Of a DNA stretch of 64,000 nt, positions 36,192-46,257 are shown one piece after another (the stretch's first letter is position 1; each line of letters opens with the position of its first letter). Location of the stretch: positions 1-64,000 of IMG/VR virus record IMGVR_UViG_3300044611_000703; one strand, 5' to 3'. The position numbers and the translations under genes are program-made. Source of the stretch: a virus. The notes under the pieces are model-generated. The model saw only the letters and a list, made by a program, of their open reading frames with translations, was not told where the DNA came from and did no database searches.

Positions 36192-38072
36192 TTATGCTAA
36201 TGAACTCGCACTAATATTACTATTCATTAATTGTGTTTTGTTTGCGGTTGGAGCCATTAAACCATTACTATACATCGCCTCTTTTAACGCTCCGACCATA
36301 CCTTGTTGAACGTCAGTATTTTTAAGAGCCATTACTATTTGGTTAGTGTCAACATTACCTGTTGTTTTTAAATCTATATTGTGATTTAATGTTATTTCAA
36401 TTGGTCTATCAGTAGATGGATTAGTTGCTGTTTGTGATGTATTAGTAGGAATTGTTGAGGCATTTCTAACATTACTAATTTCTGTTTGAGTAATATTTGT
36501 TTCCTGTTTCTTATTACTTTCTATCTTACTTATATCACCCGATAAAAGTTTTTTAAGTTGGTCAATCACAGGGTAATCATTTTTTATTTTTTCAGATTCG
36601 ATTTGGGCGTTTTTCATTCCGGTTTCATAAGCAGAATTAAGTAATGACCCTAATTTTTTTAAATTTTCCCCAACTTCTTTTCTTGCCTCACCAGCACTTA
36701 TCTCACCATCTGTTAATCTTTTAAGAACATCTAAATTTTTATCTATACCTGAGTCAATTGATGACGCAAGATTTTTTGTACTCATCTCTTTTGGTGAAAG
36801 TGTTTTTCTAACTGCGGTTGAAGTATCTCTAAGAAAATTTATACCAGTACCCATCGCTTTAGTTCTTGCAGCCCCTAAACCTGTTTGGTCTGCCAATGAT
36901 TTAATATCCGCAGCCATTTTTTCTGTAACACTTAATTGACTAACAGCTAATTCCTCCATTGTTTTTGGAGCGGTATTAGCCATTTTTTCAAGATTTGCAA
37001 CATCTTTTTCATTTAATTGGTCAAGGGCTTTGGTAATAGTTTCACCTGTTTGTTCATCTTTGACTTGAACTTCATATTTACCTCCAGCACCCATTTCAGC
37101 CATATTGGCTATCATTTTTTGCTTATCTTCATCTAAGCCCGGTAAATCAGGAAAACGAATTTTACTCATTTTATCCTCTAATTCAGCACTACCTAACGCC
37201 ATTTTAGTCAATTGTTCATAAGGTATACCCATCGCTTTGGATATTTCTCTCATTTGACGTTTCGCCCCCGGCATAATTTCAAAATTACCGTCTTTACCTA
37301 ATTGAACAAATTGTTTACTCATTTGAGCAATTTGGTTTTGTAATTCAGCCGGGTCATTTTGAGCTAAATCCATCATTTTAAGTGGGTCAAGTAAACTACT
37401 TTGAGAAACACCTAATCTTTGCATTGCCGCAGCCATTTCAATAGCCCCTTCCGGGTCAAATACTTTTTCCGCAAACGCCAATGTTTGACTCATATCAATT
37501 CTTAATAAACTCGCTTGAGCAGCCATTTTAGCCAAACCGGATACTCCTCCTTCAAAATTATATTTGTTTAGGGCATCCATATTTTGTAAAACTTTTGCCG
37601 AAACATCTGCGGCGTTTACACCTGACTGAGTAGCAATATCAACAACTTTTTTCATTTCACCCGCAACTCGTCCCGCACCAATTCCAACATCTTTAAATCC
37701 TGATACTAACGTACCAACTTCTTGACCTGTTACTTTCACTGTTGCATAAAGGTCTTTATTTACTTCCGCAGATAATATTACGTTTCGTTGTAAAGCTTTT
37801 GAAGCCTCCATTTGTGTTTTAATAACCGCATCAATATCCCCACCTAAAGTTCTAACACCAGTAACCGCATCAGCCATAGTGGCTCTTAATGTTTGAGCCA
37901 TTTCTTGACCAACACCAAATTGTTTTAAAAGGGTACTAGCCCCTTTATCAAGTTCGGCAACGACTTTACCAACTGCTTCGGTTTGAAAATTACTTAATAA
38001 AGCTTTACCGAACGAATCAAGAATATCTTTACCTTTTTGACCACTAGCGTCTAAACTACTTGCATCTTGCAT
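36192..38072 (-). CDS. Tail tape measure protein
   Basis: A 626-aa, Ala/Lys/Gln/Met-rich, mainly alpha-helical protein, very different in composition from its beta-rich neighbours. Length is close to T4 gp29 (590 aa), which would set a tail of similar length. It follows the tail tube and tail chaperone genes, the conserved order in long-tailed phages. Long amphipathic helices are visible, for example FGKALLSNFQTEAVGKVVAEL and AQASLLRIDMSQTLAFAEKV, and the C-terminal 100 residues are Thr/Asn-rich. Its start codon is preceded by AAAACAAATT, shared with the chaperone and tube genes. No transmembrane segment is obvious. Confidence 0.85.
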   Translation of the reverse strand: MQDASSLDASGQKGKDILDSFGKALLSNFQTEAVGKVVAELDKGASTLLKQFGVGQEMAQTLRATMADAVTGVRTLGGDIDAVIKTQMEASKALQRNVILSAEVNKDLYATVKVTGQEVGTLVSGFKDVGIGAGRVAGEMKKVVDIATQSGVNAADVSAKVLQNMDALNKYNFEGGVSGLAKMAAQASLLRIDMSQTLAFAEKVFDPEGAIEMAAAMQRLGVSQSSLLDPLKMMDLAQNDPAELQNQIAQMSKQFVQLGKDGNFEIMPGAKRQMREISKAMGIPYEQLTKMALGSAELEDKMSKIRFPDLPGLDEDKQKMIANMAEMGAGGKYEVQVKDEQTGETITKALDQLNEKDVANLEKMANTAPKTMEELAVSQLSVTEKMAADIKSLADQTGLGAARTKAMGTGINFLRDTSTAVRKTLSPKEMSTKNLASSIDSGIDKNLDVLKRLTDGEISAGEARKEVGENLKKLGSLLNSAYETGMKNAQIESEKIKNDYPVIDQLKKLLSGDISKIESNKKQETNITQTEISNVRNASTIPTNTSQTATNPSTDRPIEITLNHNIDLKTTGNVDTNQIVMALKNTDVQQGMVGALKEAMYSNGLMAPTANKTQLMNSNISASSLA

Positions 38073-38093: not shown

Positions 38094-38135
38094 AATACAC
38101 CAAAGACATATTTTAATTTAGGTCTTTGGTGTATT
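38094..38135 (-). terminator. Hairpin at the end of the chaperone gene
   Basis: Two 14-nt arms (38094-38107 and 38122-38135) form a perfect inverted repeat around a 14-nt loop. In minus-strand RNA the first arm lies inside the last codons of the frameshift-extended chaperone frame and the stop codon falls in the loop. After the second arm the RNA reads TATTTATAAAAC, so the U-run is weak. It may terminate, attenuate, or protect the chaperone mRNA. Confidence 0.6.
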
Positions 38136-38261
38136 ATCTTCTAGAATTCTGTTTATTAAAAATTTCCTAACATAAGTAGGCATCTCGTTGAAGTCACTAT
38201 ATGATGTTCTTATAAATTTAGCCATCAAATAATATTCCTCAATTAGTAGTTGTCGATAGTT
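38118..38261 (-). CDS. Second tail-assembly-chaperone reading frame (T part), probably reached by +1 frameshift
   Basis: This frame runs without a stop from the codon AAC at 38261, which overlaps the stop codon of the 251-aa chaperone, to TAA at 38118-38120. Entered by frameshift it adds 47 residues (NYRQLLIEEYYLMAKFIRTS and on to NRILEDNTPKT), giving a fused protein of 298 aa. An internal ATG at 38225 would allow a free 35-aa protein instead. The peptide has the helical, acidic/aromatic look of G-T type chaperone extensions (YSDFNEMPTYVRKFLINRIL). It lies directly before the tape measure gene, where such products act. No other gene explains this 188-nt gap. Confidence 0.65.
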   Translation of the reverse strand, partial: NYRQLLIEEYYLMAKFIRTSYSDFNEMPTYVRKFLINRILEDNTPKT

Positions 38262-38268
38262 AAAAGAA
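38259..38268 (-). promoter_or_regulatory. Candidate +1 ribosomal frameshift site (TTC TTT TAA C)
   Basis: The zero frame ends TTC TTT TAA, followed by C. A phenylalanyl-tRNA on TTT can re-pair perfectly one base forward because the next base is T, and the slow stop codon in the A site favours slippage. The next +1 codon is AAC, the first codon of the open T frame. The -1 frame runs only a few codons before a stop, so +1 (or -2) is the productive shift. Confidence 0.55.
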
Positions 38269-39015
38269 AGGCCGAAAAAACTCAACCCCAAAGGTTATCT
38301 CGTAAGATACCAATTCTCCTGATGGGGCGGTTGCAGTTCTTTTAAGGTCTAATGACGGTTCATTTTCTCTTAAAAAAGTTCTTATGTATTTAGAGTCCAT
38401 AATAGGTAAAGTATCAACAAACATCGCTATTTTACCTCTATCGTTATCACCATCAATCTCAACAATTTGTTTTTGTAATTTCCAAGTTATTCTTGGCGCT
38501 TGTCTTCCCACGGGATATTGTTCAACCATTTTATCCAACTCAATAGTGTCATGAAAAGTGGTAGGTCTTAATTTAATTGTTACACCTGTTTTAGGTAATG
38601 TTGTAGTAAAAAAACCATTTTCATCAGGTTGATGTTTACATTGTTTAATATTTAATTCATCCAAGACAACAGTGTGTGAAAAAGTTTTACTAGTACTTGG
38701 GTCAATTAAATTAATTGTATATTCCGGACCAAAAGAAGTATTTCTTAAAAAGATTAAAATTGCTTCAACATCACCATCCATTAATTCTTCAGGACGTAAA
38801 TCATGTTCATATAATTTATTTCTTAATAAAGTAAATACAATATTTTCTTTACCAGCCATTGCACCAATCAAATAATTTTCATCAGATGCCGTTAAATAAC
38901 CTACTTTAACCGATTTTTTCTTAGATTTATAAAAAATTCCACCACTCGGTAATGATACCACGTCATGTGGTAATGTGAAATTTTCTGTTGCTGCATTAAT
39001 TAAACTTTCGTCCAT
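38260..39015 (-). CDS. Tail assembly chaperone / T4 gp26-like protein (G part)
   Basis: A 251-aa protein of the T4 gp26-type baseplate/chaperone family (Pfam T4_baseplate style): the N-terminal LPSGGIFYKSKKKSVKVGYL followed by LTASDENYLIGAM is the family signature, and CKHQPDENGFFTTTLPKTGV further supports it. T4 gp26 is 208 aa. It lies between the tail tube and tape measure genes, which is the classical place of the frameshifted G/GT chaperones of long-tailed phages. Its stop codon TAA at 38260-38262 sits in a slippery context that would allow a 47-residue extension. Confidence 0.8.
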   Translation of the reverse strand: MDESLINAATENFTLPHDVVSLPSGGIFYKSKKKSVKVGYLTASDENYLIGAMAGKENIVFTLLRNKLYEHDLRPEELMDGDVEAILIFLRNTSFGPEYTINLIDPSTSKTFSHTVVLDELNIKQCKHQPDENGFFTTTLPKTGVTIKLRPTTFHDTIELDKMVEQYPVGRQAPRITWKLQKQIVEIDGDNDRGKIAMFVDTLPIMDSKYIRTFLRENEPSLDLKRTATAPSGELVSYEITFGVEFFRPFF

Positions 39016-39072: not shown

Positions 39073-39103
39073 AAAAAATCCACATATTTTTGATATGTGG
39101 ATT
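39073..39103 (-). terminator. Intrinsic terminator of the tail tube gene
   Basis: An 11-bp perfect stem (AATCCACATAT / ATATGTGGATT) with a 5-nt loop lies 26 nt after the tube stop codon. On the minus strand it is followed by TTTTTT. It fits a strong stop for the abundant tube mRNA. Confidence 0.85.
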
Positions 39104-39128: not shown

Positions 39129-39617
39129 TTAGTAAACTAATATACATCTATCCATACGTAATACCGCTGATATTGTCGCTAAAGCGTCTGTACTATACGC
39201 CAACGAATCAAAGTTAACATCAGATAAGAAAGTTCCTTCTAATATCCATTTCTCAACAACTACACCCGTTGGGTCTAACATCTCAAGGTCAACATTCTTT
39301 TTATAACCCGCAGCATACCCCATACGTCCGGTAACTGATTCTGCACATAAACGTACCCATTCCATAAGTGCCTGAGACGCAGAAGGTCCAATTGGGTCAC
39401 GGAATTTAACATTTATTGTACCCCAAGTAAAACGACCGGCAACATATGTTTCAGTGTTTAAAAATGGAATCGCAACAGGATTAATTGTTATTTTTGGTCT
39501 TGCTGCCGATTCTACGAACCATTCATTAATCCCTAATGTTGAAGGAAAACGTAATATAAACCTATTTTGTCTTTTAGGTTCGTAAGGTATGGGCATTTTC
39601 ATTAATAAATCAGCCAT
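39129..39617 (-). CDS. Tail tube protein, T4 gp19-like
   Basis: A 162-aa protein, almost exactly the 163 aa of T4 gp19. It has the compact beta-barrel pattern of Hcp/gp19 tube proteins: RQNRFILRFPSTLGINEWFV, then the FTWGTINVKFRDPIGPSASQ strand, and a closing YSTDALATISAVLRMDRCIL strand typical of myovirus tube proteins. Many copies stack into the rigid inner tube. It lies between the HAD-family gene and the chaperone genes, with a dedicated terminator and a 172-nt leader, which suggests a strong own promoter. Confidence 0.9.
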   Translation of the reverse strand: MADLLMKMPIPYEPKRQNRFILRFPSTLGINEWFVESAARPKITINPVAIPFLNTETYVAGRFTWGTINVKFRDPIGPSASQALMEWVRLCAESVTGRMGYAAGYKKNVDLEMLDPTGVVVEKWILEGTFLSDVNFDSLAYSTDALATISAVLRMDRCILVY

Positions 39618-40667: not shown

Positions 40668-43600
40668 TTATATATTCTCGAAAGATGCACCTGTTGGAGT
40701 GATATAGAACGTAATGTCTATAAATTCTAACGATTTGGTTGGTTTGATGTAAATCTTACCTGTCATTTGATTTCTGTCTATATCAGCTGCGTCAGACGAA
40801 ACAGTTACACGGAAATCGTAAAGACCTCTATCTCTTCTAATCGAATCTAATATTGGGTTAACAGAATCCAAGAAATCTTGTCTTACTTTAGCATCGTTTT
40901 GTTCGAATAATAATCTAACAGAAACAGCAGATATTAATTTACGAGCTTGAAGTAATAATCTTCTTACGTTGATTCTATCAAGTGCCGATTGTCTAATTTG
41001 AAGAGTTTTGTTACCCCAAATAACTGTTCCAACATCAGAGAAGGTAGCAATTGGATTTAAACGACCTTGATATAGAGTATCTCTATTTTCTTGAGTCAGT
41101 TTAATTCTCGCTTTAACAGCATTTACAATACCTCTCGTGTAACCCGCAGCTGCGAACCAAGGATAAGCGATGTTGTCTGTTAACGCTAAGTTTCTCGTTA
41201 CCTCAGCAGTTGCTGGTAAGTAAATTTGTGTATTGTTAACTGTATCTCTCATTAATACCCAAGGGTAGTAAGTCGCCGTGTAGTTAGAATCAATACCTGA
41301 ATTTGCTAAATTATCTACAGCCTCTTGTGGGTAAATAAAGTCAAATTGATTACCTGTTGAAGGAACATACATATTGTAGTCAGGTGTTGTACAAACGTAC
41401 AATGAATCTGCTCTACTAAATTCAATCATATCGATTGCGTTTTCAACTAAATTAGAGTTATTAACATAATCAATACCCGGTGTAACAAACACGTTAATGT
41501 TTACTGCTTCAGGATTTGCAAATGTTTCTTGACCTAATAAATAAGCGTAATAATCGGTGTTCGCAAAATCTTGAGTATTACCCGCTACACTAATTTGTTT
41601 GAATGCCCCCCAACCTGTTGCGGTAGGGTATCTTGGTGTTGGACAAGCTCCTCTTAAATAACCTGCTCTACCTAATACAAATCTATCAGTATTTGTTCTA
41701 AATTCTCTGTAGATATCCCATCCATCAAAACCTCCTTTAACAAGTAAAGTAAATTTACGTGCAAAAATTCTATAGTAAGGATTTTCAGGGTTATCAGGGT
41801 CTGATGTAAATGGTGCGTCACCACAGAAGAACGCCGGTGTACCACTAGTTACAAATACATTAGGTATTGTAATACCTGTTGCATTTTCATCCATGTGGAA
41901 TCCTCTAGTTCTAAAGTTCCAAGGATTACCTTCAGTATCGTTACATATATCTAAAGGAAGTTGATTACCTTTATATTGGAAGAAGTCAACATCAATACCT
42001 TCAGTATCAGAGATACCTAAATAAGTTCTTCTTACATTATCACCCGCACTTGTAGTAGTATCGTCCGCACCTGATGCTAAACCAAATGGTGGATTATAAA
42101 CTACCTCACCAGGATAATAGTATTTAGCTTTAATTAATGGGAATGGTGGTCTAACACCAGCATATTCTCTATAATCATAACCCAAGAATCCACAAGGAAG
42201 TGCGTCTATCGGAGCATCCTCATTCATCTCAACCATAACATAACTTGATAATAATGGATATTCACCATCTAAACTACCAATTTTCTTACCTACGAATGAA
42301 TTATCTTGAGGGTTCATTGTACAGTTAGTATATTTTTCAAGAACCACCGGAGCAGAATCAGTATCAAAGAAATCTCTAATCAATACATCAAAAGTACCGT
42401 TGTTAAATGACATATTAGCTAACGATATTTTAATATCAACGTTAGCAGAATCACCATCAGCAATAGTTGTAAATTTAAATAAGTTATAAACTTTATTACC
42501 TCTTAATTCAGAAACAACCCAAGGTGATACCGGAGATTGATATTTCTCTAAATAAAATGCTATTGATGTTGGGTCAATTGCTTGACGTGCGTCAGGTAAA
42601 GCGGTTAATTCACAATTTAAACCTCTAATATAACCCATTCTCCAAGCATTTGTTAATAAAGCTTGGAATCTTTCTTCAACAAATAATGGAACTACTGTTC
42701 TTGGTTTAGAGAAGTTAGACGCTCCAAATACTTTACTTATATATTTAGGGTCAGAGTTTGAGAAGGATGTTTCAAAGAAATATTGGTCACCATCTTTACT
42801 TGTGATGTTAACACCAAAAGTTGAAAATGGGTTTTTAGTTACACCTGAATATGTTCCTGTACAATCTAAACTAACATCAGTTAAACCTGATACTTCATAA
42901 ACCGGACCATCATCTAAACCATATGTTGAAAGACCTCTTGAACGTAATGTAGCAATTACTAAATCATCATAATCAGTATATGCGGTTCCCGAATAGACAT
43001 AAATAACACCTATCAATGTACCTGTATAACAATGTGTAGGTCTAGCCGTTGTTGTTGAAGTGGTTGATGTTGATGTTGTAGTTGTACATGGGTCAGTTGT
43101 AGTAGTTGTTGTTGACGTAGACGTTGTAGTTGTAATAATAGGTGTCAATGTTAATCCTGTCACAACTGACCAAAATGAAAATCCTGTGTAAGCGGCATTA
43201 CCAACATTATCAAATAATGAGTAATACCAAGGGTCATTTTGTGGTGCTGAGTAATTACATAAATTAGCACTTACATTATCAACTTCGTAAACATTTGTTT
43301 CACCTGTATACACCTCACTTAATCCTGAATAAACACTTGTTGGTATTGCTCCGTAGTAATAAATTGAAGTATCCTCTTTTGCCGGTGTTGAAACTACGTC
43401 AAAAATTTGTCTAGAGAAATCAGTATACAACGTACTTATACTACCATCGAATTGTTCGTAAGGTTCGTTTAATATTGAAGAAATCTCAGGTGCTAAATTA
43501 GATGTGTTTGTAAACACTATACTATCAATACTGTTAGTACACGCCGAGAATTCAATAGAATAATTAATTGTTTTAAAGTCAATACACTCAGTTATACAAT

Positions 43601-43994
43601 TCTCAGTTGTAGCACTTTCACAAAAGAAATCAACCGTTGTCGGGTTAACATTCGCTTTTGTTGTTATAGACCAAGATGGTCCTGCATCATAACCGGATAA
43701 TCCTAAAACTCTCGTTACGAATAATTGGTTAGATTGTTGTAAGTATGATTTAGCAATATAAGCCGCTTCGTACTTTGGAATTTGTGTATTTATAAATTTT
43801 TCTGGAGAAGTTCCACCGAAGAAATTTGTGAATTCATCAAAATTTCGTATAAAAATAGGTTCGAAAGCAGGACCTTTTAAGGTCTCACCCACAATACCCA
43901 ACGTGGTAACTCCCACACTTTGTGCTACGAAACTTAAATCAACTTCAGAAGTATATACTCCGGGAGATACGAATACTTTTTGATTTGATGCCAT
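40668..43994 (-). CDS. Tail sheath protein, T4 gp18-like, with Thr-rich insertion
   Basis: An 1108-aa protein, much longer than T4 gp18 (659 aa). The N-terminal VFVSPGVYTSEVDLSFVAQS and the C-terminal QSALDRINVRRLLLQARKLI, with ITFYITPTGASFENI at the end, are the conserved contractile-sheath signatures. Extra domains are inserted in the middle. Residues about 286-318 form an almost pure Thr/Ser linker (TTTTSTSTTTTTTDPCTTTT and on), which resembles mucin-type or O-glycosylated stalks. The sheath surrounds the gp19-like tube and contracts to drive it into the cell. The start is preceded by a long A/T-rich leader with a TATTTATC element at 44031-44038. Confidence 0.92.
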   Translation of the reverse strand: MASNQKVFVSPGVYTSEVDLSFVAQSVGVTTLGIVGETLKGPAFEPIFIRNFDEFTNFFGGTSPEKFINTQIPKYEAAYIAKSYLQQSNQLFVTRVLGLSGYDAGPSWSITTKANVNPTTVDFFCESATTENCITECIDFKTINYSIEFSACTNSIDSIVFTNTSNLAPEISSILNEPYEQFDGSISTLYTDFSRQIFDVVSTPAKEDTSIYYYGAIPTSVYSGLSEVYTGETNVYEVDNVSANLCNYSAPQNDPWYYSLFDNVGNAAYTGFSFWSVVTGLTLTPIITTTTSTSTTTTTTDPCTTTTSTSTTSTTTARPTHCYTGTLIGVIYVYSGTAYTDYDDLVIATLRSRGLSTYGLDDGPVYEVSGLTDVSLDCTGTYSGVTKNPFSTFGVNITSKDGDQYFFETSFSNSDPKYISKVFGASNFSKPRTVVPLFVEERFQALLTNAWRMGYIRGLNCELTALPDARQAIDPTSIAFYLEKYQSPVSPWVVSELRGNKVYNLFKFTTIADGDSANVDIKISLANMSFNNGTFDVLIRDFFDTDSAPVVLEKYTNCTMNPQDNSFVGKKIGSLDGEYPLLSSYVMVEMNEDAPIDALPCGFLGYDYREYAGVRPPFPLIKAKYYYPGEVVYNPPFGLASGADDTTTSAGDNVRRTYLGISDTEGIDVDFFQYKGNQLPLDICNDTEGNPWNFRTRGFHMDENATGITIPNVFVTSGTPAFFCGDAPFTSDPDNPENPYYRIFARKFTLLVKGGFDGWDIYREFRTNTDRFVLGRAGYLRGACPTPRYPTATGWGAFKQISVAGNTQDFANTDYYAYLLGQETFANPEAVNINVFVTPGIDYVNNSNLVENAIDMIEFSRADSLYVCTTPDYNMYVPSTGNQFDFIYPQEAVDNLANSGIDSNYTATYYPWVLMRDTVNNTQIYLPATAEVTRNLALTDNIAYPWFAAAGYTRGIVNAVKARIKLTQENRDTLYQGRLNPIATFSDVGTVIWGNKTLQIRQSALDRINVRRLLLQARKLISAVSVRLLFEQNDAKVRQDFLDSVNPILDSIRRDRGLYDFRVTVSSDAADIDRNQMTGKIYIKPTKSLEFIDITFYITPTGASFENI

Positions 43995-45320: not shown

Positions 45321-45854
45321 TTATTTTGTTATAAATATTTTGTCTCTTAAATTTATCATTTCAACTTCACCGGCACTATATATTGGTTCTTCGGTATCTT
45401 TTACAACATAAGAGTTATATTTGTAAGGGTTATAGGTTACTATATTACTATTTGGTTCACTTGGTAAATTCTCACAAGGAAATTTACAATAATCCATTAA
45501 AGTTCCAATTACAAATGAATGAACATTCTTTCTTTTATCTTTTAATACTTTTTCTCTACCCCCTTGTCTAACTCTGAATTCAACATCTGATAATTTAACA
45601 TAATCGGCATGAGTAATAACTCTTCCATTATAGGTTACTGAAAAGGTGTGTTTGTGTAAGTTATAATAAACCATAACTTTATCACCAATATTTTTTTTCT
45701 CCTCATTATCGTGACCACACTTGTGACAGATATAAGGGTCGTTTCCACCATCGGCTAAAGCCCAAGACCAACCACACTCATCACAAATAACTTTATCATT
45801 TGTAACAATTTCTAATAATCTTCTATACTGTCTTTCGTTAATTATAATTTTCAT
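45321..45854 (-). CDS. Zinc-ribbon-containing unknown protein (177 aa)
   Basis: The start at 45854 (MKIIINERQYRRLLEIV) is preferred. A longer frame from 45905 overlaps the upstream gene by 68 nt, whereas this start overlaps by 17 nt. Residues about 22-50 carry a zinc ribbon, CDECGWSWA and YICHKCGHD, with four Cys in two CxxC pairs. The rest is unassigned. The N-terminal helix resembles those of other proteins in this window and may be a docking or packaging signal. Two further Cys (CKFPC) occur near residue 138. Function unknown. Confidence 0.65.
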   Translation of the reverse strand: MKIIINERQYRRLLEIVTNDKVICDECGWSWALADGGNDPYICHKCGHDNEEKKNIGDKVMVYYNLHKHTFSVTYNGRVITHADYVKLSDVEFRVRQGGREKVLKDKRKNVHSFVIGTLMDYCKFPCENLPSEPNSNIVTYNPYKYNSYVVKDTEEPIYSAGEVEMINLRDKIFITK

Positions 45855-46257
45855 AATCGTAATATGTGGATACTGATTTAACAGGTAAATTAAAATTATC
45901 TTCAAACCATTTTTTCATAGGTTCTTCCCAATGTCCTTCAAACATGTCATCTAAATGTTCCGCGTGCTTACCAATAACTTCTAAAATTGGTGCTTTATCT
46001 CTAAAAGGTTTATGTGATGGTTCAGTATTATAATAATCAACATCAAAATAATAAAAAATAATATCAGTATCATAAATACCTTGATAATCACCTTCAAAGA
46101 ACATTAAAAAGTATTCGTTTTCTCTATCAACATCAGGATATCCATCTTCATCTTCATCCATACCATAAACCCAATCCATTTTACTTGAATTAAATGTTTT
46201 ATCAATATAATTGTATATTGAATTGAATAGTTTATTTTTTGTTATTTTTACTTTCAT
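45838..46257 (-). CDS. Acidic unknown protein (139 aa)
   Basis: A 139-aa, strongly acidic protein (many Asp/Glu/Tyr) starting MKVKITKNKLFNSIYNYIDK. No motif recognised. Its start overlaps the upstream neck-like gene by one base and its end overlaps the zinc-ribbon gene by 17 nt, indicating translational coupling. High acidity could mean an internal head protein or a DNA-mimic protein, but there is no direct evidence. Confidence 0.6.
   Translation of the reverse strand: MKVKITKNKLFNSIYNYIDKTFNSSKMDWVYGMDEDEDGYPDVDRENEYFLMFFEGDYQGIYDTDIIFYYFDVDYYNTEPSHKPFRDKAPILEVIGKHAEHLDDMFEGHWEEPMKKWFEDNFNLPVKSVSTYYDYENYN

Follow-up and report, generated by a model that had tools for sequence, protein, structure and literature searches.

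Background

In phage λ, a short G protein and a rare G-T fusion are made from overlapping frames that lie between the genes for the tail tube and the tape measure (PMC5009743, in the portion of its text available). The same portion calls G-T frameshifting widespread "except T4" and gives HSTV-2 as a likely +1 case. For some T4-like phages, separate genes for a short and a fused long chaperone have been described (Vladimirov 2022, as cited in the available parts of PMC10885494 and PMC12846349); poly-T -1 signals in T4-like genes are cited as well (PMC12846349, same part), and among the chaperones of hub assembly, PMC3004832 (in part) names T4 gp26 and gp51.

Bacteria have few programmed +1 shifts, with the well-known ones lying at stop codons. 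The +1 site of influenza PA-X is UUU_CGU. That of prfB is CUU_UGA (PMC10885494, in part), and the +1 tail site of the Listeria phage PSA is CCC_UGA (PMC5009743, in part). In each of these genes, all of them unrelated to G, the P-site tRNA moves forward by one base at a slow A-site codon, and the same is proposed below for a phage gene of the gp26 family. However, the prfB and PSA sites are at stop codons, whereas the site considered here apparently lies away from the stop.

The gene belongs to a 64,000-nucleotide stretch, referred to here as the window, which is part of a 77.2-kb virus record. Judging from comparison with its relatives, it probably yields two proteins, a 251-aa G and a 298-aa G-T fusion, the latter by a +1 slip at UUU_CGG. 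As with λ G/GT, the two products would come from overlapping frames, with a tail tube gene upstream; however, λ and most others shift -1, while the window site would shift +1, with no -1 heptamer in use. In the literature searched, as far as its text was available, no +1 gp26-family chaperone is described (PMC5009743, PMC9024508, PMC3004832, PMC10885494, PMC12846349, PMC5349666, PMC12671138, and PMC9603447 included; Vladimirov 2022 through citing papers only). Within the same limits, a +1 clade, a site away from the stop, and a switch of shift direction at a single point within one gene family appear to be new.

The gp26-like gene and its surroundings

The features discussed are collected in Table 1. 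In profile searches, G matches PF12322 with 33 bits (cut-off 24.5) and phrog_150 with an E of 9.1e-12, which places it in the T4 gp26/gp51 family; it is the only gp26-family match in the 77.2-kb record, which may itself be a fragment. An AlphaFold model of G (mean pLDDT 86.0) matches gp26-like hub proteins, that of SP-15 included, in a viral structure library, and a PDB fold search with this model gave no match at E <= 0.001. On the minus strand, the 3' end of the gene reads GAG TTT TTT CGG CCT TTC TTT TAA C. The original prediction was thus accurate in its coordinates and letters for a 251-aa gp26-like gene ending TTC TTT TAA C, and also in describing a +1 frame that stays open for 47 codons past the stop, up to a TAA at 38118-38120 (minus strand), and a -1 frame that soon closes, in fact after 6 codons.

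The 626-aa ORF next downstream gave no match to any tape-measure family in profile searches. In LIS04 and immuto, the gene after G is annotated as tape measure, and the full tube-G-tape order is present there by annotation. Thus, of the hairpin that had been placed just before the tape measure gene, the inverted repeat itself was found, by eye, and the identity of the gene behind it follows from gene order only. The repeat is a possible terminator and is too far downstream to count as a stimulator of the shift. A further short inverted repeat between tail genes, also seen by eye and possibly a terminator, lies at 39077-39103.

Two other observations concern the same region. The tail sheath protein, at 1108 aa, is long and contains stretches rich in threonine and serine; the sheath profiles cover it from about residue 818 on only. 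At 45321-46257, two ORFs are listed with a 68-nt overlap; an ATG at 45854 in the second, which matches phrog_586 (function unknown), would shorten the overlap to 17 nt, and this is therefore likely an ordinary gene pair.

Table 1. Features at and around the gp26-like gene (positions in the window)
Feature	Position	Strand	Basis or remark
Tail sheath gene, upstream of G	40668..43994	-	PF17482, phrog_23
Tail tube gene, upstream neighbour of G	39129..39617	-	phrog_4542, E 3.1e-25
G, 251-aa T4 gp26-family protein	38260..39015	-	PF12322, phrog_150
Proposed slip site TTT TTT CGG (second TTT 38275-38277, CGG 38272-38274)	38272..38280	-	motif and codon constraint
G stop codon TAA, shift site of the original prediction	38260..38262	-	re-pairing at stop not conserved
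T frame, +1; 51 codons with entry at UUU_CGG, 47 past the G stop	38118..38273, stop included	-	open frame, conserved peptide
Inverted repeat around the T stop, 14-nt arms 38094-38107 and 38122-38135	38094..38135		by eye, not folded
626-aa ORF, next downstream (start 38072)	36192..38072	-	tape measure by position only

Conservation of the T frame

Considered in the window alone, the length of the open +1 frame is no great surprise: among 20,000 dinucleotide shuffles, 182 were open for 47 codons, which is unlikely but not extreme. It is conservation across the family that carries weight. Relatives were sorted into group A, the window and its nearest IMG/VR loci (the first scan gave the best 80 of 410 relatives); group B, the +1 loci around immuto; group D, the +1 loci around SP-15, LIS04, and GXN1; and group C, in which T lies in the -1 frame. 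Since the IMG/VR loci are the best 80 per query (of 410, 280, and at least 600 relatives), the counts cover each query's nearest relatives.

A tblastn search against named phages gave ten records, and six different phages were then compared. The +1 frame is open past the G stop in Streptococcus phage GXN1, Listeria phage LIS04, Bacillus phage SP-15, Flavobacterium phage immuto, and an uncultured 484-kb phage, while in the sixth, an uncultured 595-kb phage, T is in -1. Elsewhere, Microcystis phage Mel-JY01 and Rhodothermus phage RM378 are +1, and Xanthomonas phage XacN1 and Methylophilales phage Melnitz are -1. The single relative found in bacterial genomes (L253) is likewise +1.

Among the 80 nearest loci (best 80 of 410), the +1 frame is kept in all, in L078 just to its contig end. 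At least 45 open +1 codons are present in every one of the 80 usable rows of group A (79 loci and the window, L078 left out), or in 24/24 without near-copies (best 80 of 410 relatives), and none of the 80 has as many in -1. For the other groups, the counts hold among the matches listed. T is kept in +1 in 78/78 usable rows of group B, of which 4 have at least 45 open -1 codons as well; at least 43 open +1 codons follow in 29/29 usable +1 loci of group D, one further match of that scan (L295) being -1; and the -1 T frame is kept in 76/77 rows of group C, the exception (L180) being a contig end after 42 open codons, with 1/77 having at least 45 open codons in +1 too. Among the matches listed, at least 123 nonredundant lineages, 24 in group A, 75 in B, and 24 in D, keep the +1 T frame. 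Conservation of this frame in homologous phages had been suggested as a check by the original prediction, and it was found throughout (80/80, 78/78, and 29/29 usable rows of A, B, and D). Excluded before the frame counts were L078, L169, L185, and L249, with too little sequence past the stop, and L120, with no stop ahead of its contig end; L190, L269, and L291 never entered the counts, and L284, from the group D scan, is without a stop.

The T peptide of group A has a mean column identity of 78% over 14 aligned rows, in all of which residues Q4, I7, E8, and E9, soon past the junction, are invariant. Changes in the group A T frame by codon position are 2615/1546/4507, highest at the third (totals over all pairs from 24 rows, so that the pairs are not independent). 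The frame overlaps or abuts the end of G and has no conserved start of its own. By these comparisons of sequence, the extra +1 frame after the gp26-like G is under selection. Chance or sequencing error as its source was considered and is ruled out by conservation across relatives.

Position of the shift

All +1 groups carry a short motif 3-15 codons ahead of the G stop; in the window, the proposed slip at UUU_CGG (38272-38277) is four codons from it. Group A reads TTT-TTT-CGN-CCT in 24/24 lineages. Group B reads TTT-YTT-TGG-CCT, with TAC or TTC replacing TGG in 6/74 and GAC next in 70/74 (L168 fell outside this pattern, though its end reads FFWP). The commonest form in group D is TTY-TTT-CGT-CC, and the UUU_CGU of PA-X is present there literally. 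From the motif's second codon to the G stop, no +1-frame stop occurs in 600 codons (96 in A, 389 in B, 115 in D), whereas in the 20 codons upstream of the motif there are 157 in 2,460, the nearest lying 3-7 codons from the motif in the tightest rows. (For L277 of group D, the anchor in this count was probably HFAT, a looser motif than the one used in the codon count.) Being free of stops from the motif on, with stops upstream, the +1 frame is apparently translated from the motif onward.

Furthermore, codon choice within the motif departs from that elsewhere in the same genes. Arginine at the site is CGN in 24/24 group A lineages, compared to 16% elsewhere, and CGG in 12/24 (CGA, CGC, and CGT also occur); elsewhere in these genes, CGG is found in 0/238 and AGA makes up 81%. 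In group D, the site arginine is CGN in 17/17 (17% elsewhere), mostly CGT. In group B, leucine is CTT in 18/18 (19% elsewhere), proline CCT in 74/74 (37% elsewhere), and aspartate GAC in 70/71 (22% elsewhere). Double coding in two frames, rather than slippage, could explain the fixation of CCT and GAC. AGA would break re-pairing, while CGN lets the tRNA on UUU move to UUC; the choice of arginine codon fits a +1 slip. Perfect P-site re-pairing one base on is available in the window, in 24/24 lineages of A, 74/74 of B, and 20/24 of D; in the other 4/24 of D (next codon AAT) and in LIS04 (AGT), re-pairing is imperfect. Thus, the family has a conserved slippery site with codon constraint, as G/GT genes do, of the +1 type instead of the usual -1. 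In the window, CGG accounts for 5 of 655 arginine codons, and TTT-CGG is found at the slip site alone (40 ORFs). Given this rarity, CGG may be slow in the A site in the host, although other CGN codons take its place in part of group A and in most of group D.

Downstream RNA structure was considered as a stimulator and rejected, as no strong fold was found in A, B, or D: the mean z of 80-nt folds is -0.81 (A, 24 rows), -0.83 (B, first 30), -0.26 (D, 24), and -0.97 (C, first 30), with z < -2 in 0, 6, 2, and 8 rows, respectively. Shine-Dalgarno-like motifs upstream are scattered, none of them consistent, in a search region that partly overlapped the group A T run. No tRNA genes were found in the window.

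Alternative explanations

The original prediction of a +1 shift that gives a 298-aa G-T fusion is supported, to the extent that the conserved frame speaks for it; its site and trigger are not. There, the last sense codon was taken to slip because of the stop that follows it (TTT_TAA), in the manner of prfB, and in the window, as in 44 of 81 group A rows, TTT_TAA does let the tRNA re-pair on UUU. However, the other 37 of these rows end TTC, the stop also varies (TAA in 78, TAG in 2, TGA in 1), and re-pairing at the stop is not conserved. In the other +1 groups, where the motif stands 3-15 codons ahead of the stop, hardly any restriction is seen on the last codon, and one able to move onto UUU is present in just 1/75 lineages of B and 0/24 of D. 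In addition, a stop-triggered slip needs no open +1 frame upstream of the stop, yet that stretch is free of stops in all 600 codons, and such a slip would not fix CGN or CTT codons. A slip of this kind is therefore unlikely, and the junction ...FFRPFF-NYR that goes with it is not supported; a slip at UUU_CGG is expected to give ...GVEFF-GLSFNYR.

It might also be argued that T is simply translated on its own as a small protein, through re-initiation or an internal start past the G stop, since it is annotated as its own ORF in SP-15 and immuto and an ATG stands at the 13th codon of the window's T frame. Yet relatives do not keep this ATG (in 8/24 group A lineages, codon 27 is the first ATG). 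Conserved residues come ahead of it, and in most rows ahead of any ATG; in group B, the first ATG falls mostly within the conserved block (55/75 have it at codon 27 or 33). Moreover, the +1 frame is open before the G stop too, back to the motif, and T4 has its T-like tail joined to a G domain. A free-standing T is thus highly improbable. The six-T run at the window site would suit slippage of RNA polymerase (transcriptional slippage) or a ribosomal -2 slip, but there is no long run where the site is TTT CTT (18/74 in B) or starts TTC TTT (6/24 in D), -2 re-pairing fails in these same lineages, and CGN would offer no advantage over AGA. The chance that either process underlies the T frame appears extremely small.

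Proposed mechanism

In the model preferred here, a +1 slip at UUU_CGG, most ribosomes would terminate at the TAA at 38260-38262 and release the 251-aa G. A minority would pause with tRNA-Phe on the UUU at 38275-38277 while the rare arginine codon CGG awaits in the A site. The tRNA-Phe would then slip one base forward and re-pair on UUC, and the shifted ribosomes would continue with GGC CUU UCU UUU AAC to give the 298-aa G-T fusion. We infer that such slippage takes place in the cell, after a pause at the rare codon, and that its efficiency is low enough for G to be the major product. For the window protein, the predicted tryptic junction peptide would be TATAPSGELVSYEITFGVEFFGLSFNYR if the slip is at UUU_CGG and TATAPSGELVSYEITFGVEFFRPFFNYR if it is at the stop. 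By analogy with λ G/GT, G would act as a chaperone that forms a coat on the tape measure protein, tail tube subunits would be brought in by the T domain of the rarer G-T, and neither G nor G-T would remain in the finished tail.

Relation to -1 phages and to T4

G is homologous between the +1 and -1 groups (97.7%, E 2.5e-12), in an alignment that spans the C-terminal FF motifs, and T is as well (97.0%, E 9.1e-11). Taken alone, the group A T peptide matches the -1 T domains weakly (53%, and 0.05% against a smaller set), and against T4 gp51 it gave no match in the gp51 tail. T of the -1 group matches this tail (83.5%, E 8.3e-6), but the combined +1 T set does so poorly when compared directly (7%), and consequently the link of the +1 T to gp51 runs via the -1 group. 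T4 gp26 and gp51 both belong to PF12322, and the window G is in the same family; however, T4 has two genes (gp26 corresponding to G, and gp51 to G plus T), whereas the window has one gene with a proposed shift.

The heptamer T_TTT_TTN is present in 47/47 nonredundant lineages of the -1 group, among the matches listed, and the same -1 arrangement is found in cyanophage Syn1, Sinorhizobium phage phiN3, Stenotrophomonas phage Yut2, Vibrio phage PG216, and Aeromonas phage Aeh1. These five have homologous G and T, with the shift at the same FF-coding place as in the +1 groups, but they use T_TTT_TTN and -1 where the +1 groups have UUU_C or YUU_U. The small T ORFs of Syn1, phiN3, Melnitz, PG216, and, weakly, AG3 match phrog_634, "baseplate hub assembly catalyst"; that of Yut2 gave no match to it. 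Three separately annotated ORFs, SP15_046 (L086:3740-3859), immuto35A_232 (L085:3833-3943), and Syn1 "gp51" (L254:2268-2399), are in-frame tails of the T frame and are probably fragments of the fusion. In the Ackermannviridae phages SE14 and AG3 and in Vibrio phage D531 (L257, L258, L260), T is in -1 with no clear heptamer, and in two of them the stop and start overlap as TAATG; coupling or re-initiation may be used there.

A tree of 80 rows, with a midpoint root that serves for drawing only, splits into a side of 57 rows (53 +1 and 4 -1) and a side of 23 (20 -1 and 3 of the T4 type), with 4 changes for the three labels +1, -1, and T4 type. RM378 and XacN1, the latter without a clear heptamer, are on long branches, and their placement is unsure. 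The 595-kb phage (L087) and the IMG/VR loci L296-L298 have T in -1 though they fall on the +1 side; L296, L298, and the 595-kb phage cluster together (support 100/100). T_TTT_TTC stands at the FF position in L296 and L297, in L296 upstream of the G stop. A reversal of shift direction is possible in L087 and L296-L298.

Implications

Taken together, these results have led to a broader hypothesis, which we consider probable: in a whole clade of contractile-tail phages, among them jumbo phages and phages that infect Bacteroidota and Firmicutes, the gp26-family chaperone is made through a +1 shift for which UUU_C or YUU_U ahead of a rare or slow codon is enough, with no need of a stop or an RNA structure. 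At one and the same FF-coding position, the direction would have changed between -1 and +1, and in the T4 lineage a gene duplication would have taken the place of the shift. Some of the small ORFs annotated in public records after gp26-like genes would then be pieces of a fusion protein. Because the site is short and fixed, at least 123 nonredundant natural variants of it are at hand, and -1 homologues exist, one can ask which features decide whether slippage goes forward or backward. If the hypothesis is true, T4 with its two genes, the cyanophages with their -1 shift, and the +1 phages would lie on one evolutionary path.
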